Source: Flavobacteriales bacterium (GTDB lineage: Bacteria > Bacteroidota > Bacteroidia > Flavobacteriales_D > Crocinitomicaceae). From it: a DNA stretch of 64,000 bases. This document shows, piece after piece, positions 3,196 through 63,841 of this stretch (positions within the stretch are counted from its first letter, which is position 1; every line of letters begins with the position of its first letter). The stretch is from NCBI GenBank assembly GCA_947462255.1, contig CANHOA010000007.1:62001-126000 (forward strand), read 5' to 3'. The notes under the pieces are model-generated. The model made no database searches and was not told the DNA's origin. It saw nothing but the letters and a program-made list of their open reading frames with translations. Both the position numbers and the translations under genes were made by a program.

Positions 3196-6011
3196 AGATA
3201 GAAAAGATTGAATCAGGACATATATCTATTTTCGGAGCGAAAGAGCATAACCTAAAAAACATAGACTTAAAAATCCCTAGAAATCAGTTGACCGTTTTCA
3301 CAGGTTTGAGTGGCAGTGGTAAATCTTCTCTTGCTTTCGACACTATTTTTGCTGAAGGCCAACGGCGATATATCGAAACATTCTCTTCCTATGTTCGCCA
3401 GTTTATCGGTAACTTAGAAAGACCCGAAGTAGATAAAATTGATGGCTTAAGTCCGGTTATTGCCATCGAACAGAAAACTGTTTCACGCTCGCCCAGATCA
3501 ACTGTTGGAACAATTACAGAGCTCTATGATTTCTTTAGACTCCTATATGCAAGGGCGTCAACAGCTTATTCTCTTCATAGTGGGGAAAAAATGGTAAACT
3601 ATTCAGAGGAAGAAATTACTGAAATCATACTCACAACCTACGCTGGAAAAAAAGTTGCCTTATTAGCACCAAAAGTTAGAGGTCGTAAAGGTCATTACAG
3701 AGAACTATTTGAGCAGATCCTGAGAATCGGCTATACAAAAGTTAGAGTTGATGGCGAAGTTCAAGATATTACCAAAGGCATGCGCCTAGATCGCTATAAA
3801 AATCATGATATTGAGATGGTTATTGATCGAATAGTTGTTGAACAAAAAGATAGAAAACGCCTAAATGACGCTGTTCAGATTTGCCTAAAACATGGCGATG
3901 CGAACATGATGGTACTCGACATGGAAACGAATAAAAGTCACTATTTTAGTCGCTCTCTGATGTGTCCCACAAGCGGAATTAGTTATCCTGAACCTGAACC
4001 CAATTTATTTTCTTTTAATTCTCCATACGGAGCTTGTCAAGTTTGCAGTGGATTAGGAGATGTAAGTGTTGCATCAATGGAAAAAATCATCCCCGATCCA
4101 TCAAAATCAATACGAAAAGGTGGATTAGCTCCTCTAGGGGAATACAAAAAAAGCTGGATTTTTGATAAAATTGAGGAACTTGTTATTGCCAACGGATATA
4201 ATATTGCTACTCCGCTTGCAGAATATGATGAAGAGCTTGTGAAATTGATTTTGTATGGTAATGAAGATATGGAGCTAATAAGTGGTGATAATACCGCTCG
4301 ATTTGAAGGAATTATCAACTTTATTTCTAGACATGCTGAAGATAGTACTGCTGGTATACAGCGATGGGCACAAGGATTTATGAATAAAAAAACATGTGAT
4401 TCTTGCTCAGGTTACCGACTTAGAAAAGAAGCGCTACATTTTAAAATTGGACAGCTACACATTGGACAAATTTCCAATATGGATTTAAGTGAATTATCAA
4501 AATGGCTAACAGAAATTGAAAGTCACTTGACCAACGATCAATCCATTATTGCCTATGAAATCATTAAAGAAATTCGTTCTCGCTTACACTTTATCTTAGA
4601 GGTTGGACTTGAGTACCTCACCTTAAATCGCTCTTCCAAAGGTCTTTCCGGTGGTGAAGCGCAACGCATACGCCTTGCCACGCAAATTGGAACTGAATTG
4701 ATCAACGTTTTATACATTCTCGATGAACCCTCCATTGGATTGCACCAGCGCGACAATCAAAAACTAATTGCATCCTTAAAGAAACTAAGGGATGCTGGCA
4801 ATACGGTATTAGTGGTGGAACACGATAGAGAAATGATGGAGGAAGCAGACTTTGTGGTAGATATTGGTCCGGGCGCAGGGATTTATGGGGGAGAAATTAT
4901 GTATGCTGGCAATTATGCAGGATTATTAAAAACCGGAAGCTTAACGGCAGCCTATCTAAATGGGGATAAGAAAATTAGCATGCCTAGTCAACGCCGAAAA
5001 GGAAATGGAAAAAAAATCACCTTGAAAAAAGCAAGTGGCCACAACCTAAAAAATGTTGATCTAATCTTACCTTTAGGAACCTTCACTTGCATAACAGGCG
5101 TATCGGGAAGCGGCAAATCCTCCTTGATAAGCCATACCCTTTATCCCATTTTGCTAAAACACATTTACAAAGGCGTTCGTGAACCGCTTCCCTATAAAAG
5201 TATTGAAGGACTTGAGCACATTGATAAAGTAATTGATATTGACCAAAGTCCAATTGGCAGAACACCTCGTTCAAATCCGGTAACCTACACTAAAGTATTT
5301 GATGAAATACGAAGTTTGTTTGCGTCCTTACCAGAAGCACAAATTAGAGGGTACAAACCAGGGCGATTTTCTTTCAATGTTGCTGGAGGGAAATGTGAAA
5401 CCTGCAACGGTGGTGGAATGCGCTTAATTGAGATGAATTTTTTGCCCGATGTTTATGTGAAGTGTGAAACCTGTAATGGACAACGCTACAACAAAGAAAC
5501 CATCGAAATAAAATACAAAGGGAAATCAATTGCGGATGTATTAAACATGAACATTTCCGAAGCGGTAGTATTTTTTGAACACCTGCCAAAAATTTATCGT
5601 GTTTTAGAAACCTTGAATAGCGTGGGACTAGGATATGTAACACTTGGACAATCATCCACTACCCTTTCGGGAGGCGAAGCACAACGCATAAAATTAGCAA
5701 GTGAATTAACAAAGAAAGGGACTGGTAAAACCATTTATTTACTCGACGAACCTTCAACAGGATTGCATTTTGAAGACATTGAATTACTCTTAACTGTTTT
5801 GCAACGATTAGTTGACGAAGGAAATACCGTAGTCGTGATTGAACATAATCTTGATATCATTAAAACAGCCGATTATATTATTGATTTAGGTCCGGAAGGC
5901 GGCAGTGGTGGCGGTAGCATTTGCTGCATGGGAACGCCCGAAGAACTTGTTAAACTGCATGCCTTAAGCTCTTATACAGCTAAGTACTTGAAGCAAGAAA
6001 TGATGAAATGA
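3192..6011 (+). CDS. uvrA: Excinuclease ABC subunit A
   Basis: DNA-damage recognition ATPase of nucleotide excision repair; it loads UvrB at lesions. At 939 residues it matches the usual 940. Both ABC halves are complete: Walker A GLSGSGKSS near residue 41 and GVSGSGKSS near 640, two ABC signatures (LSGGEAQRIRLA and LSGGEAQRIKLA), and two Walker B segments ending LDEPS. The C-terminal zinc finger is intact (CETCNGGG ... CETCNGQ). The first finger reads CPTSGIS where the classic form is CPxCG, so one ligand is replaced by Ser, a state I recall in other Bacteroidota proteins. It overlaps the lytic transglycosylase gene by 4 bp, an unusual partner, perhaps only a shared promoter. Confidence 0.97.
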   Translation: MKIEKIESGHISIFGAKEHNLKNIDLKIPRNQLTVFTGLSGSGKSSLAFDTIFAEGQRRYIETFSSYVRQFIGNLERPEVDKIDGLSPVIAIEQKTVSRSPRSTVGTITELYDFFRLLYARASTAYSLHSGEKMVNYSEEEITEIILTTYAGKKVALLAPKVRGRKGHYRELFEQILRIGYTKVRVDGEVQDITKGMRLDRYKNHDIEMVIDRIVVEQKDRKRLNDAVQICLKHGDANMMVLDMETNKSHYFSRSLMCPTSGISYPEPEPNLFSFNSPYGACQVCSGLGDVSVASMEKIIPDPSKSIRKGGLAPLGEYKKSWIFDKIEELVIANGYNIATPLAEYDEELVKLILYGNEDMELISGDNTARFEGIINFISRHAEDSTAGIQRWAQGFMNKKTCDSCSGYRLRKEALHFKIGQLHIGQISNMDLSELSKWLTEIESHLTNDQSIIAYEIIKEIRSRLHFILEVGLEYLTLNRSSKGLSGGEAQRIRLATQIGTELINVLYILDEPSIGLHQRDNQKLIASLKKLRDAGNTVLVVEHDREMMEEADFVVDIGPGAGIYGGEIMYAGNYAGLLKTGSLTAAYLNGDKKISMPSQRRKGNGKKITLKKASGHNLKNVDLILPLGTFTCITGVSGSGKSSLISHTLYPILLKHIYKGVREPLPYKSIEGLEHIDKVIDIDQSPIGRTPRSNPVTYTKVFDEIRSLFASLPEAQIRGYKPGRFSFNVAGGKCETCNGGGMRLIEMNFLPDVYVKCETCNGQRYNKETIEIKYKGKSIADVLNMNISEAVVFFEHLPKIYRVLETLNSVGLGYVTLGQSSTTLSGGEAQRIKLASELTKKGTGKTIYLLDEPSTGLHFEDIELLLTVLQRLVDEGNTVVVIEHNLDIIKTADYIIDLGPEGGSGGGSICCMGTPEELVKLHALSSYTAKYLKQEMMK

Positions 6012-57975: not shown

Positions 57976-58998
57976 ATGAGCAAAATTGCATTCTCTTGGG
58001 ATTTATTAGAGAAAAGCTTAATTATTGATGTCCGAAGCGAAATTGAATTTGAAAAAGGACATATTCCAGGTGCAGTAAACATCCCTATTTTAGACACCGA
58101 AGAACGTAAAATAGTAGGTACTAGCTTTAAGCAAAATGGCCAAAAATACGCAATTCTTAAAGGACTAGAATTAAGTGGCCCCCATCTAAGTAAACGACTT
58201 AAATTAGCGGTTAAATTAGCTGAAAATAGCGAAAATATTGTCATTCACTGCTGGCGAGGAGGTATGCGAAGTGGTTTTTTCACTTACCTAATGGAGTTTT
58301 TTGGACTCAGGGTTTCGGTTCTAATTGGTGGCTATAAATCTTACCGGAAACATGTACAAGAAACCTTTGAGAAACCTTATAATATTGCCATTCTTGGAGG
58401 TATGACAGGGAGTGGAAAAACGCATATTCTTGACGAACTAGAAAAAACGACTGCTTTTTGCATTGATTTAGAAAAATTAGCCCACCACAGAGGTTCTTCT
58501 TTTGGTGCTTTAGGAATGGAACCACAACCTAGCCAAGAACAATTTGAAAACAATCTAGCACAACAACTTATTACAAGCGGAAAGAATACAATTTGGTTAG
58601 AAGATGAAAGCAGAACAATAGGTGCAAAAATTATCCCCGAAGGAATATGGAATCAAATGAGGGACGCACCCCATTATTTTTTAGATAGTTCCTTTGAGGA
58701 ACGACTTGATCAAATCATTTTAGATTACGGCTATTTTTCGATTGATGAACTGAAAATTTGCACCCTTAGAATAGCCAAACGGCTCGGACCGCAACATGCC
58801 AAGAAAGCAATAGAATTTCTTGATAACAATGAAGTAAGAAATGCTTTTTCCATTGCACTAAATTATTACGATAAAGCCTATTCCTACCATAAAGAAATCA
58901 ATCCGCTAGGTGAAAAAATTACAATTGATTGCCCTTCAAAAAACTATACAGAAATCGCCAATTTCTTAGTCGATATTAAAAATGAAAAGAATAGATAA
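57976..58998 (+). CDS. mnmH: tRNA 2-selenouridine synthase
   Basis: Protein of 340 residues that replaces sulfur by selenium (through a geranylated intermediate) at the wobble uridine of tRNA-Lys, -Glu and -Gln, using selenophosphate from SelD. The N-terminal rhodanese domain (about 1-125) has the catalytic Cys in VIHCWRGGMRSG; a P-loop domain follows (GGMTGSGKTHIL, about residue 142). Length is normal. The last 20 residues (PSKNYTEIANF ... NEKNR) occur again as a diverged copy 145 bp downstream. The selD gene follows. Confidence 0.95.
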   Translation: MSKIAFSWDLLEKSLIIDVRSEIEFEKGHIPGAVNIPILDTEERKIVGTSFKQNGQKYAILKGLELSGPHLSKRLKLAVKLAENSENIVIHCWRGGMRSGFFTYLMEFFGLRVSVLIGGYKSYRKHVQETFEKPYNIAILGGMTGSGKTHILDELEKTTAFCIDLEKLAHHRGSSFGALGMEPQPSQEQFENNLAQQLITSGKNTIWLEDESRTIGAKIIPEGIWNQMRDAPHYFLDSSFEERLDQIILDYGYFSIDELKICTLRIAKRLGPQHAKKAIEFLDNNEVRNAFSIALNYYDKAYSYHKEINPLGEKITIDCPSKNYTEIANFLVDIKNEKNR

Positions 58999-59034
58999 AT
59001 AGATTTCAATAGTACCAACGAAAAAAAACAAATA

Positions 59035-59070
59035 CTTTCCCCTCTGGAGGGGGATAAAGGGGGAGGAAAG
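59035..59070 (+). repeat. Y-shaped GC-rich intergenic repeat
   Basis: CTTTCC (59035-59040) pairs with GGAAAG (59065-59070), and inside CCCCT / AGGGG forms a second stem around CTGG, with a further G-rich run to 59063. I recall elements of this look (CCCCT...AGGGGG) as widespread in Bacteroidota intergenic DNA. It sits inside the inserted stretch between mnmH and its displaced tail. Confidence 0.65.
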
Positions 59071-59077
59071 ATCTAAA

Positions 59078-59137
59078 CCAACAAAAAACTACACGGAATT
59101 CACCAATTTTTTAGTCAATATTACCAATGGAAAATAA
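59078..59137 (+). pseudogene. Displaced copy of the mnmH 3' end
   Basis: Translates in the mnmH-equivalent frame as PTKNYTEFTNF ... TNGK and a TAA stop, matching the real MnmH end PSKNYTEIANF ... KNEKNR. The 52-nt stretch 59082-59133 matches 58937-58988 at 43 positions without gaps, several differences being synonymous. It overlaps the start of selD by 11 bp. It reads like the tail of an earlier mnmH that once overlapped selD. Confidence 0.75.
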
Positions 59138-60161
59138 CGAAATAAAATTAACAGAATTCACTAAGGGAGGAGGCTGTGGATGCAAGATTCCACCAGGTGA
59201 ATTAAAAGAACTACTTCAAGGAGTAATTGCAATCAATTCTGAAAATTTACTGGTTGGGAATTCAAGTGCCGACGATGCTGCTGTATACGCGATTAATGAT
59301 TCTCTTTGCTTAATTAGCACCTGCGATTTTTTTACACCTATCGTAGATTCTCCATACAATTTCGGACGTATTGCTGCAGCAAATGCTATCAGCGATGTCT
59401 ACGCTATGGGTGGCAAACCTATACTTGCGTTGAGTATTCTTGCATGGCCAACCTCGGTAATACCAATACATATTGCTTCCGAAGTTTTAAAAGGAGCAAC
59501 CGAAACATGTAATTTAGCAGGAATTACCCTGGCAGGTGGACATTCCATCGAAAATAAAGAGCCCATTTTTGGTCTTGCAGTAAATGGAATTGTTGACAAA
59601 AAAAATATTAAGAAAAATAATACGGCTCAAGAAAACGATCTTATTTTTTTAACAAAGCCTATAGGAACTGGCATTGCAGCAACAGCCATAAAACGCGGGA
59701 TGGAAAATCCGCAACTAATGAACGATTTTATACAAAATTGCTGTCAACTGAATAAAATAGGTGAAAAATTAGGGCTTTTAAACTTTGTTTCAGCCATGAC
59801 CGATGTAACTGGTTTTGGCTTATTGGGTCATTTACTTGAAATGACCGATAACGGTCGACTAAGTGCAAACCTGTTTAGAGAAAAAGTTCCCTTGCTTGAA
59901 GGAGTAAAAGAATTAGCAGATGCGTGGATCTATCCAGACAACACGATGCGTAATTGGAAAATGCATGGAGATAAGGTACTTGGCGTGGAGGATTCATCAT
60001 TATTAACCCTAAGTGATCCTCAAACAAATGGTGGTTTATTATTTTCCATTACTCCAAATGAAAAAGATAAACTAATTCAGCTATTCCAAAGTGAAAATTT
60101 ACCTTTGTATGAAATCGGTTATTTCACTGAGAAAGCACCCTTTTCAATAAATGTTAAGTAA
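59127..60161 (+). CDS. selD: Selenide, water dikinase
   Basis: Enzyme of 344 residues that makes selenophosphate from selenide and ATP, the selenium donor for MnmH and for selenocysteine synthesis. The N-terminal loop GGGCGCKIPPGEL holds the active-site Cys; the position often occupied by selenocysteine is Cys here. NSSADDAAVYAI, DFFTPIVDSPYNFGRIAAAN and MTDVTGFGLLGHL are family motifs. Start at 59127 (MENNEIKLTEFTKG), within the displaced mnmH tail. With mnmH next door and no SelA/SelB in the window, the local pair suggests tRNA selenation. Confidence 0.97.
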   Translation: MENNEIKLTEFTKGGGCGCKIPPGELKELLQGVIAINSENLLVGNSSADDAAVYAINDSLCLISTCDFFTPIVDSPYNFGRIAAANAISDVYAMGGKPILALSILAWPTSVIPIHIASEVLKGATETCNLAGITLAGGHSIENKEPIFGLAVNGIVDKKNIKKNNTAQENDLIFLTKPIGTGIAATAIKRGMENPQLMNDFIQNCCQLNKIGEKLGLLNFVSAMTDVTGFGLLGHLLEMTDNGRLSANLFREKVPLLEGVKELADAWIYPDNTMRNWKMHGDKVLGVEDSSLLTLSDPQTNGGLLFSITPNEKDKLIQLFQSENLPLYEIGYFTEKAPFSINVK

Positions 60162-60460: not shown

Positions 60461-63400
60461 ATGAAACAAGAAAGTCCCTATCAACCCATTCATAAAATCC
60501 GAATTGTAACGGCTGCCTCTCTTTTTGACGGCCACGATGCTGCCATCAATATAATGCGGCGTATAATTCAAGCAACAGGATGCGAAGTCATTCACCTTGG
60601 CCACGATCGATCTGTCGAAGAAGTAGTTGATTGTGCCATCCAAGAAGATGCTCATGCCATTGCAATGACATCCTACCAAGGTGGGCATATCGAGTACTTC
60701 AAGTTTATGTCAGATTTACTGAAAGAAAAAGGAGCTCCTCAAATCAAAATTTTTGGAGGTGGAGGCGGTACCATTTTACCATCTGAAATTAAAGAATTAA
60801 TGGATTATGGTATAACAAAAATTTACCACCCCGATGATGGAAGAAAGCTCGGCCTGCAAGGAATGATAAACGACCTCATCAAACAATGTGATTTTGCACT
60901 TGGTGATAAATTGACAAATGAATTTTCAGAAGTTAAAAACCAAGTGATCCCGGCAATAGCAAGAGTTATTTCTGCTGCAGAAAATTTTCCGGCATTGTAC
61001 CTCAATGAAATAAAAGAAATTAAAAAAATCGCCAAGGACTCAAAAATTCCAGTCTTAGGAATTACAGGAACTGGTGGTGCAGGGAAATCATCTTTAGTAG
61101 ATGAGCTCGTTAGGCGTTTTCTTCACGACTTTTTGGATAAAAAAATTGCAGTTGTCTCGGTAGATCCATCGAAAAGAAAAACAGGAGGTGCCCTTCTAGG
61201 CGACCGAATTCGAATGAATTCAATCAATAGCAACCGCGTTTACATGCGATCGCTAGCCACTAGGCAATCTAATTTAGCCCTTTCAAAGCACGTAGCAGAT
61301 GCCATTAGTATTTTAAAAGTGGCAAAATACGACCTCATTATTATTGAAACTTCAGGGATTGGTCAATCTGACACAGAAATATTAGACCACTGCGATGTTT
61401 CACTATATGTTATGACACCAGAATATGGTGCCGCAACTCAGCTAGAGAAAATTGACATGTTGGATTTCGCAAATGTCATTGCCTTAAATAAGTTTGATAA
61501 ACGAGGTGGACTAGATGCCCTCAGAGACGTTAGAAAACAATACCAGCGAAACCACAACTTGTGGGATGATAGCGTTGATAGCATGCCTGTATATGGAACA
61601 ATTGCTTCGCAATTCAATGATCCAGGAATGAATTCGCTCTACAAAGTAATCATGGATAAAATTGTCTCCATGACGAATGCTCCACTTGTCTCCTCGCTTG
61701 TCATTACGTCAGAAATGTCGGAAAAAATCTATGTTATTCCACCAGAACGAACCCGCTATTTATCAGAAATTTCAGAAAATAATCGAGCCTATGATAATTG
61801 GGTAAATAAGCAAGTAGAAGTCGCGGAAAATTTATACGGATTACACGTTTCAATGCAGTCCATTAAAAATTCCGAAATTGAGGATAAAGATCGACTAATA
61901 AAGCAGTTACAAGAAGTATTTGAGAAAGAAAAACTAAATTTTGATCCTAAAAATTGGGCGTTTTTACAAGAGTGGGAAGCAAAGAAGCAAACGTTTAAAG
62001 ATCCAATTTTCAAATTTAATGTAAGGGATAAAGTGTTAAGTATTCAAACGCACACCACATCCTTATCTCAAACGCAACTGCCAAAAGTAGCTAGTCCAAA
62101 ATACAGAAGTTGGGGCGATATCTTACGATGGGGCTTGCAAGAAAATTTTCCGGGTGAATTCCCCTATACTGCAGGATTGTTCCCTTTCAAACGAGAAGGC
62201 GAAGATCCAACCAGAATGTTTGCAGGAGAAGGTGGGCCTGAGCGCACTAACAAACGTTTTCATTACGTAAGTTTAGGACTTCCAGCCAAGCGCCTATCTA
62301 CCGCCTTTGATTCAGTTACCTTATACGGAAATGATCCTGCTATTCGGCCCGACATATACGGAAAAATAGGTAATTCCGGCGTTTCTATTTGTTGTCTAGA
62401 TGATGCTAAGAAACTCTATTCCGGTTTTGATTTATCGCATCCTGCAACATCGGTTTCCATGACTATAAATGGCCCCGCTCCTATGCTGCTTGCTTTTTTC
62501 ATGAATGCTGCCATCGATCAGAATTGTGAAAAATACATCATGGCAAATGGCCTAGAAAAAGAAATTTCAACTAAAATTGTAGCTTTATATAAGCAAAAAG
62601 GAATTGAGCGACCAAAATACAATGGCGATTTACCCGAAGGGAATAATGGTCTTGGTCTTTTTCTTCTTGGCATTACCGGTGATCAAGTACTTCCTTTAGA
62701 AATATATAATCAAATAAAAAAAGAGACACTTGCTCAAGTAAGAGGAACGGTACAAGCCGATATTCTTAAAGAAGACCAAGCGCAAAACACCTGTATTTTT
62801 TCTACAGAATTTGCACTCCGATTAATGGGAGATGTTCAACAATATTTTATTAATAATCAAATTCGTAATTTCTATTCCGTTTCAATTTCTGGCTACCATA
62901 TTGCAGAAGCAGGTGCAAATCCTATCACGCAATTAGCCTTTACCTTGGCGAACGGATTCACCTATGTCGAGTATTATTTGAGCAGAGGAATGGACATCAA
63001 TGATTTTGGTCCAAATCTATCTTTCTTTTTCTCGAATGGAATCGATCCTGAATATGCTGTAATTGGCCGAGTAGCTAGAAGGATTTGGTCGAAAGCCTTA
63101 GCTAAAAAATACCATGCGAATCCTCGTGCTCAAATGTTGAAATATCATATTCAAACATCGGGAAGATCCTTGCATGCACAAGAAATTGATTTCAATGATA
63201 TACGTACCACATTACAAGCATTGTATGCCATTTACGACAACTGTAATTCCTTGCATACCAACGCATACGATGAAGCAATTACTACCCCAACAGAAGAATC
63301 CGTTAGAAGGGCAATGGCGATTCAGTTGATTATCAACAAAGAGTTGGGCTTAGCAAATAATGAAAATCCATTACAAGGCTCATTCATCATTGAAGAATTA

Positions 63401-63841
63401 ACGGAACTCGTTGAAACGGCTGTTTTAATGGAATTTGACCGAATTACCGAACGTGGCGGAGTATTAGGTGCCATGGAAACGATGTACCAACGATCGAAGA
63501 TACAAGAAGAATCCTTGTATTACGAAACCTTAAAACATACGGGAGAATTTCCAATTATCGGTGTAAACACCTTTTTAAGTTCTAAAGGTTCACCAACAAT
63601 TCTTCCAAAAGAAGTAATCAGGGCAACAGAAGAAGAAAAAGCATATCAAATAAGCATGCTCCAAAATTTGCATGTCATGAATAAGGAAGAATTTGATAAA
63701 AAAATAAGCCAAATTCAAGATGCCGCTATTAATAACACCAATATTTTTGATGAATTAATGGAAGTAGCGAAATATGCATCACTTGGTCAAATTACTTCTT
63801 CTTTATTTGCAGTTGGTGGACAATACCGACGCAATATGTAG
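60461..63841 (+). CDS. icmF: Fused isobutyryl-CoA / methylmalonyl-CoA-type mutase (IcmF)
   Basis: Adenosylcobalamin-dependent acyl-CoA mutase of 1126 residues. Domains in order: B12-binding (about 1-140, [11 protein letters not shown] with the lower-ligand His), a MeaB-like GTPase (about 190-420, [41 protein letters not shown]), a linker, and the mutase barrel (about 545-1126, [34 protein letters not shown]). IcmF enzymes interconvert isobutyryl- and n-butyryl-CoA and related acyl-CoAs, for branched-chain amino-acid and fatty-acid metabolism. The built-in G domain replaces a separate MeaB. Own promoter; a hairpin and repeats follow. Confidence 0.96.

Follow-up and report, generated by a model that had tools for sequence, protein, structure and literature searches.

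How single-gene defence candidates move between genomes without a transposase is an open question, and it is raised here by a short repeat at the end of the housekeeping gene mnmH in a 64,000-nucleotide stretch of DNA (the window) from a Flavobacteriales bacterium of the Crocinitomicaceae. Insertion with long target duplication is a known but little-understood mode of gene movement. It is described for restriction-modification genes of Helicobacter pylori (Nobusato et al. 2000, as cited in PMC1643837, PMC3031569, PMC3874152, PMC4978471). The structure of the mnmH/selD junction in the window is probably the scar of a Bro-N gene that was inserted with such a long target duplication and later lost. 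Insertions with empty sites, long duplicated targets, and an edge at the stop codon make the idea of 2000 testable on a second kind of gene.

The Duplicated End of mnmH

The features of the junction, in window coordinates, are the following:

57976-58998, plus strand: mnmH, tRNA 2-selenouridine synthase; identity confirmed by NCBIfam; stop codon TAA at 58996-58998
58937-58978, plus strand: native (upstream) copy of the duplicated mnmH tail; one mismatch in 42 sites to L023, a relative with an empty site
58976-59170, no strand: approximate tract probably gained by recombination, as judged from alignment and identity bins; L025/L026-like source
58985-59009, plus strand: last 25 nt of a Bro-N (PDC-S13) gene, left as a remnant and identical to the 3′ terminus of the L025 Bro-N ORF
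59010-59082, plus strand: spacer; 94.5% identity (69/73) to the L026 spacer
59038-59066, no strand: GC-rich palindromic dispersed repeat of the CCCCCTCTnGAGGGGGAnnAAGGGGGAGG family, from a pattern search of the genome
59078-59137, plus strand: displaced mnmH tail, the putative second copy of the target duplication; stop inside selD
59127-60161, plus strand: selD, selenide, water dikinase; identity confirmed by NCBIfam

Positions 58937-58988 and 59082-59133 match without gaps at 43 of 52 bases. A self-match search of 58500-59600 gave 43 as the best 52-mer score, a value reached by none of 200 first-order Markov simulations (maximum 34), and the repeat described in an initial annotation of this DNA is thus borne out. 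Rereading of the sequence also confirmed that the displaced copy is a readable MnmH C-terminus overlapping the selD start: translated from 59078 it gives PTKNYTEFTNFLVNITNGK, followed by the stop TAA at 59135-59137, and it ends inside selD with an 11-bp overlap. The synonymous differences that had been claimed between the two tails are real (codons TAC, ACG, and TTT), and all three are also present in the native mnmH tail of L025. Residues after NFLVDI at the end of the window's MnmH now come from inserted DNA; the L023 protein ends NFLVNITNGK.

A 145-bp tandem duplication was ruled out, as 58989-59081 has no second occurrence after 59133. Downstream of selD, the window carries a gene for a fused isobutyryl-CoA mutase/GTPase (IcmF) at 60461-63841, and the small ORF between selD and this gene had no NCBIfam match.

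The Same Junction in Related Genomes

Relatives of mnmH were compared at 69 loci taken from species genomes. A search for the junction across 86 genomes of the genus yielded 17 with any match and 13 with a readable junction. The spacer is absent from 10 of these 13, and 7 of the 10 have an 11-bp overlap of mnmH and selD. Spacer and displaced tail occur together in two of the 13, the window and L026 (genome G073), and a Bro-N gene of 849 bp occupies the junction in one, L025 (G067); a junction holding a Bro-N gene plus both tail copies was not found among the 13. The former mnmH/selD overlap proposed in the initial annotation is thereby supported, and aligning the junctions of relatives has revealed the overlap without spacer that its model expected.

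The closest relative found, L023, is 95.4% identical to the window in mnmH and 96.1% in selD. Its junction is empty, as is that of L024, with the target present once in each. L024 is close to L026 (94.5%), yet empty at the junction. All four loci, L023 to L026, are from metagenome bins.

Native and Foreign Parts of the Junction

The initial annotation had proposed that a diverged 3′ part of mnmH came in together with the spacer, leaving the resident tail as a remnant. Two tail alleles, an ancestral spacer-less overlap, and recombination between lineages are all true, but the direction is wrong. Measured in 75-nt bins up to 58950, mnmH of the window is 92-100% identical to L023 and 69-91% identical to L026, without the recombination breakpoint that had been predicted within the gene, so no foreign mnmH 3′ part was imported; moreover, the likeness to another lineage sits in the displaced tail and not in the upstream one. 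This makes the proposal highly improbable. Judged from sequence comparison, the foreign piece in the window is the spacer with the displaced tail, and the upstream mnmH tail is native.

The displaced tail of the window matches the native tails of L025 at 40 of 42 positions, L024 at 39, and both L023 and L026 at 37, compared with 36 of 42 for its own upstream copy. Where the five native tails compared all have GCC, ACC stands in the displaced tail of the window and in that of L026 alike, which indicates that these two tails descend from one duplication; this common duplication appears to have begun to decay before the two copies parted.

The spacers of the window and L026 are identical at 69 of 73 positions, against 104 of 212 four-fold sites (49/97 in mnmH and 55/115 in selD; Fisher p about 1e-13). 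Two further gene-junction stretches are 72.7% and 75.9% identical between the window and L026, and 75.2% and 100%, respectively, between the window and L023. A spacer so much more alike than four-fold sites argues for a single duplication that was passed between lineages by recombination. The same excess speaks against an old duplication that both lineages inherited, that L023 and L024 then lost, and whose spacer purifying selection has preserved, for instance as a terminator or RNA element. Such a history would also need at least two losses, each restoring the overlap precisely, and, even granting that the palindrome in the spacer could act in transcription, we consider it very improbable indeed. 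The spacer was rejected as an RNA element because an Rfam scan returned nothing up to E 0.1 and its predicted fold is no better than those of shuffled sequences (z −0.12).

The extent of the transferred piece can be gauged from selD, which by binned identity is L023-like past its first codons. Over bases 1-75 of the gene, identity is 94.7% to L023 and to L026 alike; over the next 75 bases it is 96% to L023 and 68% to L026. This pattern suggests that a tract of some 190 bp carried the scar from one lineage to another, with its right edge somewhere from 59162 to 59171. Within the supposed imported tract, ACCAATGG in the displaced tail is as in L023 and not as in L024 or L026, so the tract would be a mosaic or its donor unsampled. 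The partial allele replacement first suggested for this locus therefore holds in one respect, since the tails are alleles of diverged lineages joined by recombination, and fails in another: the duplication is not a by-product of replacement and likely goes back to an earlier Bro-N insertion.

A Bro-N Gene and Its Remnant

The Bro-N ORF of L025 lies at 3604-4452 of that locus, at the same mnmH/selD junction, and no other plus-strand ORF in the insertion reaches 60 aa. Its protein matches the PADLOC profile PDC-S13 essentially in full length (4.8e-131; residues 1-278 of 282, profile 1-275 of 286), which would make it a candidate defence gene; the window lacks that gene and retains 25 bases of it. 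We take PDC to stand for phage defence candidate. The PADLOC paper does not use the abbreviation, and a literature search gave no match for PDC-S13. Comparison of the Bro-N protein with solved structures produced a single insignificant match, and its viral relatives amounted to one locus (L406).

The remnant begins where the native mnmH tail ends in the window and includes the Bro-N stop codon at 59000-59002. Among the loci compared, the window's genome and that of L025 are the only ones with this 25-nt end, in both cases at this junction and nowhere else. The allele of L026 and the left part of that of L025 are the same as the window's except for 18 missing bases, which include most of the remnant, and one further A. 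This loss suggests that the form in the window is probably older, and L025 would then have been rearranged again. Indeed, the downstream tail copy is absent from L025 and the GC-rich repeat stands before its Bro-N gene instead of after it, so that at least two rearrangements are required. Genome G056 has a Bro-N gene at a contig end, 97% identical over the 68 residues present, with other upstream DNA, which suggests that the gene itself is the moving unit.

Two side observations concern Bro-N loci. A short unexplained stretch, TCATTAGTGTCCGATAC, precedes selD in the Bro-N insertion of L025 (3518-4478), and paired adjacent Bro-N genes are found in G066 and G091 (L142, L166, and L167), one of them a fragment in G091.

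The GC-Rich Repeat and DUF559 Genes

The GC-rich repeat noted in the spacer is real: a pattern search allowing up to 3 mismatches finds six matches, this one among them, in the window's genome. The genomes of L023, L024, L025, and L026 have 7, 0, 1, and 4 matches, respectively, and five others have none. It resembles repetitive extragenic palindromes (REPs) in being a short, dispersed, intergenic, GC-rich palindrome, and differs from them in its link to DUF559 genes and in having so few matches in its own genome. REPs are associated with RAYT transposases. Of the 38 DUF559 genes tested in the order (66 places, of which 40 were taken and 2 long fusions skipped), 14 have a member of the family no more than 700 bp away, against 0/150 Bro-N genes; the family is thus a separate dispersed repeat and not a usual part of a Bro-N cassette.

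For the same reason, the repeat could itself have caused the duplication by inserting at the end of mnmH as a DUF559-linked element, with the Bro-N gene coming and going separately. It is present in all three insertion-bearing alleles (window, L025, and L026), its family is dispersed, and DUF559 genes are often flanked by direct repeats (16/38 at E <= 1e-6), several of which hold the GC-rich unit. In the window, however, the inserted DNA starts on its left with the Bro-N end and not with the repeat, and no direct repeat of at least 18 nt accompanies the single copies of the GC-rich repeat at L095, L096, and L107. Direct repeats are present at L101, L102, and L108, but these include the GC-rich unit itself. 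An origin of the duplication from the repeat is therefore unlikely, though not negligibly so, and the Bro-N gene is favoured as its maker on account of the left edge.

Across the order, as sampled by L092 (contig C18 of the window's own genome), L316-L345, and L396-L405, DUF559 genes are thus often flanked by the GC-rich palindrome and by direct repeats, and a partnership of the repeat with the DUF559 endonuclease is possible. At L102 (1284-1656), in L023's genome, a 201-bp unit containing the GC-rich repeat forms a tandem duplicate between two genes, with 110 bp at 90% identity.

A Proposed History of the Junction

The preferred history would begin with insertion of a Bro-N gene of the PDC-S13 type at the very end of mnmH, either in the L024-L026 lineage or in an unsampled relative, with a duplication of some 46-52 bp of target sequence. 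Through the upstream copy mnmH would have stayed readable, with new last few residues, while the downstream copy retained the old mnmH stop and the selD start. A GC-rich repeat of the DUF559 type would have entered the same spot, the Bro-N gene would have been deleted save for its last 25 bases, and homologous recombination spanning some 190 bp would have carried the resulting scar allele into the lineage of the window. We infer this order of events, as well as the role of the Bro-N gene rather than the GC-rich repeat in making the duplication; the three alleles are no proof either way. A classical insertion sequence differs on two counts, since the spacer has no room for a transposase gene and the duplication, at about 46-52 bp, is not short.

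The junction shares several traits with the insertions described by Nobusato et al., as cited in those later papers: a gene-sized insert with no visible transposase, a defence-type cargo, an empty site in a relative, and a target duplication that is long, on the scale of 100 bp, and variable. The relatives L023 and L024 are empty, and the repeat at 58937/59082 matches their mnmH tail. It differs in that the cargo is a single Bro-N gene (PDC-S13/PDC-S04 candidates) and not a restriction-modification system, and in that the window holds a scar, with no inserted gene between the repeats, whose allele passed between lineages. Because the inserted gene is gone and the cargo is of another kind, the locus is described as a scar and is not filed as a member of that class. 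Among the literature matches listed, there was no report of Bro-N genes moving by long target duplication.

Independent Bro-N Insertions with Empty Sites

A related Bro-N gene is found 3′ of a SIS-domain gene (L148) in G106, which was taken as L023's genome on the basis of an identical junction. Compared with L240, the corresponding locus of the window's own genome, L148 has an additional 910 bp with the Bro-N gene between two copies of a 74-bp SIS-gene tail that is single-copy in L240. The two copies are 95% identical, with 65 bp identical. Beside the insertion the end of the SIS gene has changed from ERML to ERELGL, and the second copy retains the old end. Apart from the gene, which has not been lost here, the layout is that of the mnmH junction.

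Three genomes, G000, G106, and G073, share a PDC-S04 Bro-N gene at a third site, with repeats of 140 bp in G106. In the G098 and G067 loci, which lack Bro-N there, the repeated sequence occurs once. The inserts of G106 and G073 are 94.7% identical and their flanks only 82-84%, and the insertion allele thus seems to have moved between lineages.

Direct Repeats Flanking Bro-N Genes

For a wider survey, 700-bp flanks of Bro-N genes were compared for direct repeats. The order set consisted of 67 of 81 Bro-N places plus two added after their repeats had been seen (G073:C53 and G104:C15), and the phylum set of 81 of 98 places. A flanking direct repeat at E <= 1e-6 was found for 17 of the 69 genes in the order and 18 of the 81 in the phylum sample, compared with 2 of 43 in the first control set at this looser limit. 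Strict limits (E <= 1e-8, both flanks at least 500 bp, gene at least 200 aa) removed 12 of 69 and 13 of 81 genes for being shorter than 200 aa or having a flank below 500 bp, and left 26 repeat-flanked genes out of 125 (16/57 in the order, 10/68 in the phylum sample), or 24 of 123 without the two rows chosen after the repeats were seen.

Control ORFs under the strict limits gave 1/74 and 0/95 (together 1/169); these are mechanical ORFs of 200-340 aa and not accessory genes, and the set of 95 consists mostly of mnmH neighbours. The difference is significant for 24/123 against 1/74 (p 9e-5) and for the phylum sample alone (10/68 against 1/74, p 0.003). About four of five Bro-N genes (99/125) have no flanking repeat, which may mean that their repeats have decayed or that this mode is not universal.

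The stop codon of the gene is a preferred edge. The start of the right copy is at most 11 bp away from the Bro-N stop in 11 of 26 cases (9 of 24 without the two rows), and the left copy is equally near to the Bro-N start in 2 of 26; uniform placement over 600 bp is the assumption behind the binomial test of the right edge. Repeats fall at gene ends for 15 of the 26 repeat-flanked genes, a share that has no control counterpart. All 11 Bro-N proteins scanned with PADLOC match PDC-S13 or PDC-S04, including 10 of 10 scanned from the 26 repeat-flanked genes.

These results lead us to suggest tentatively, with rather more doubt than confidence, that Bro-N candidates of the PDC-S13 and PDC-S04 types are phylum-wide self-moving single genes that have a right edge at their own stop, duplicate some 40-280 bp of target, frequently where a gene ends, swap the last codons of the neighbouring gene, and leave scars that spread by recombination. 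If this is true, the mobility known for restriction genes extends to other single-gene defences. The mnmH junction also illustrates how insertions of this kind can alter the last codons of a housekeeping gene and leave scars that later cross between lineages.

One control behaved in a similar manner. At L208, a short minus-strand ORF of no known identity (2108-2738 in reverse-complement coordinates) is flanked by 139-bp direct repeats of 91% identity and is possibly another gene moved by insertion with long target duplication.
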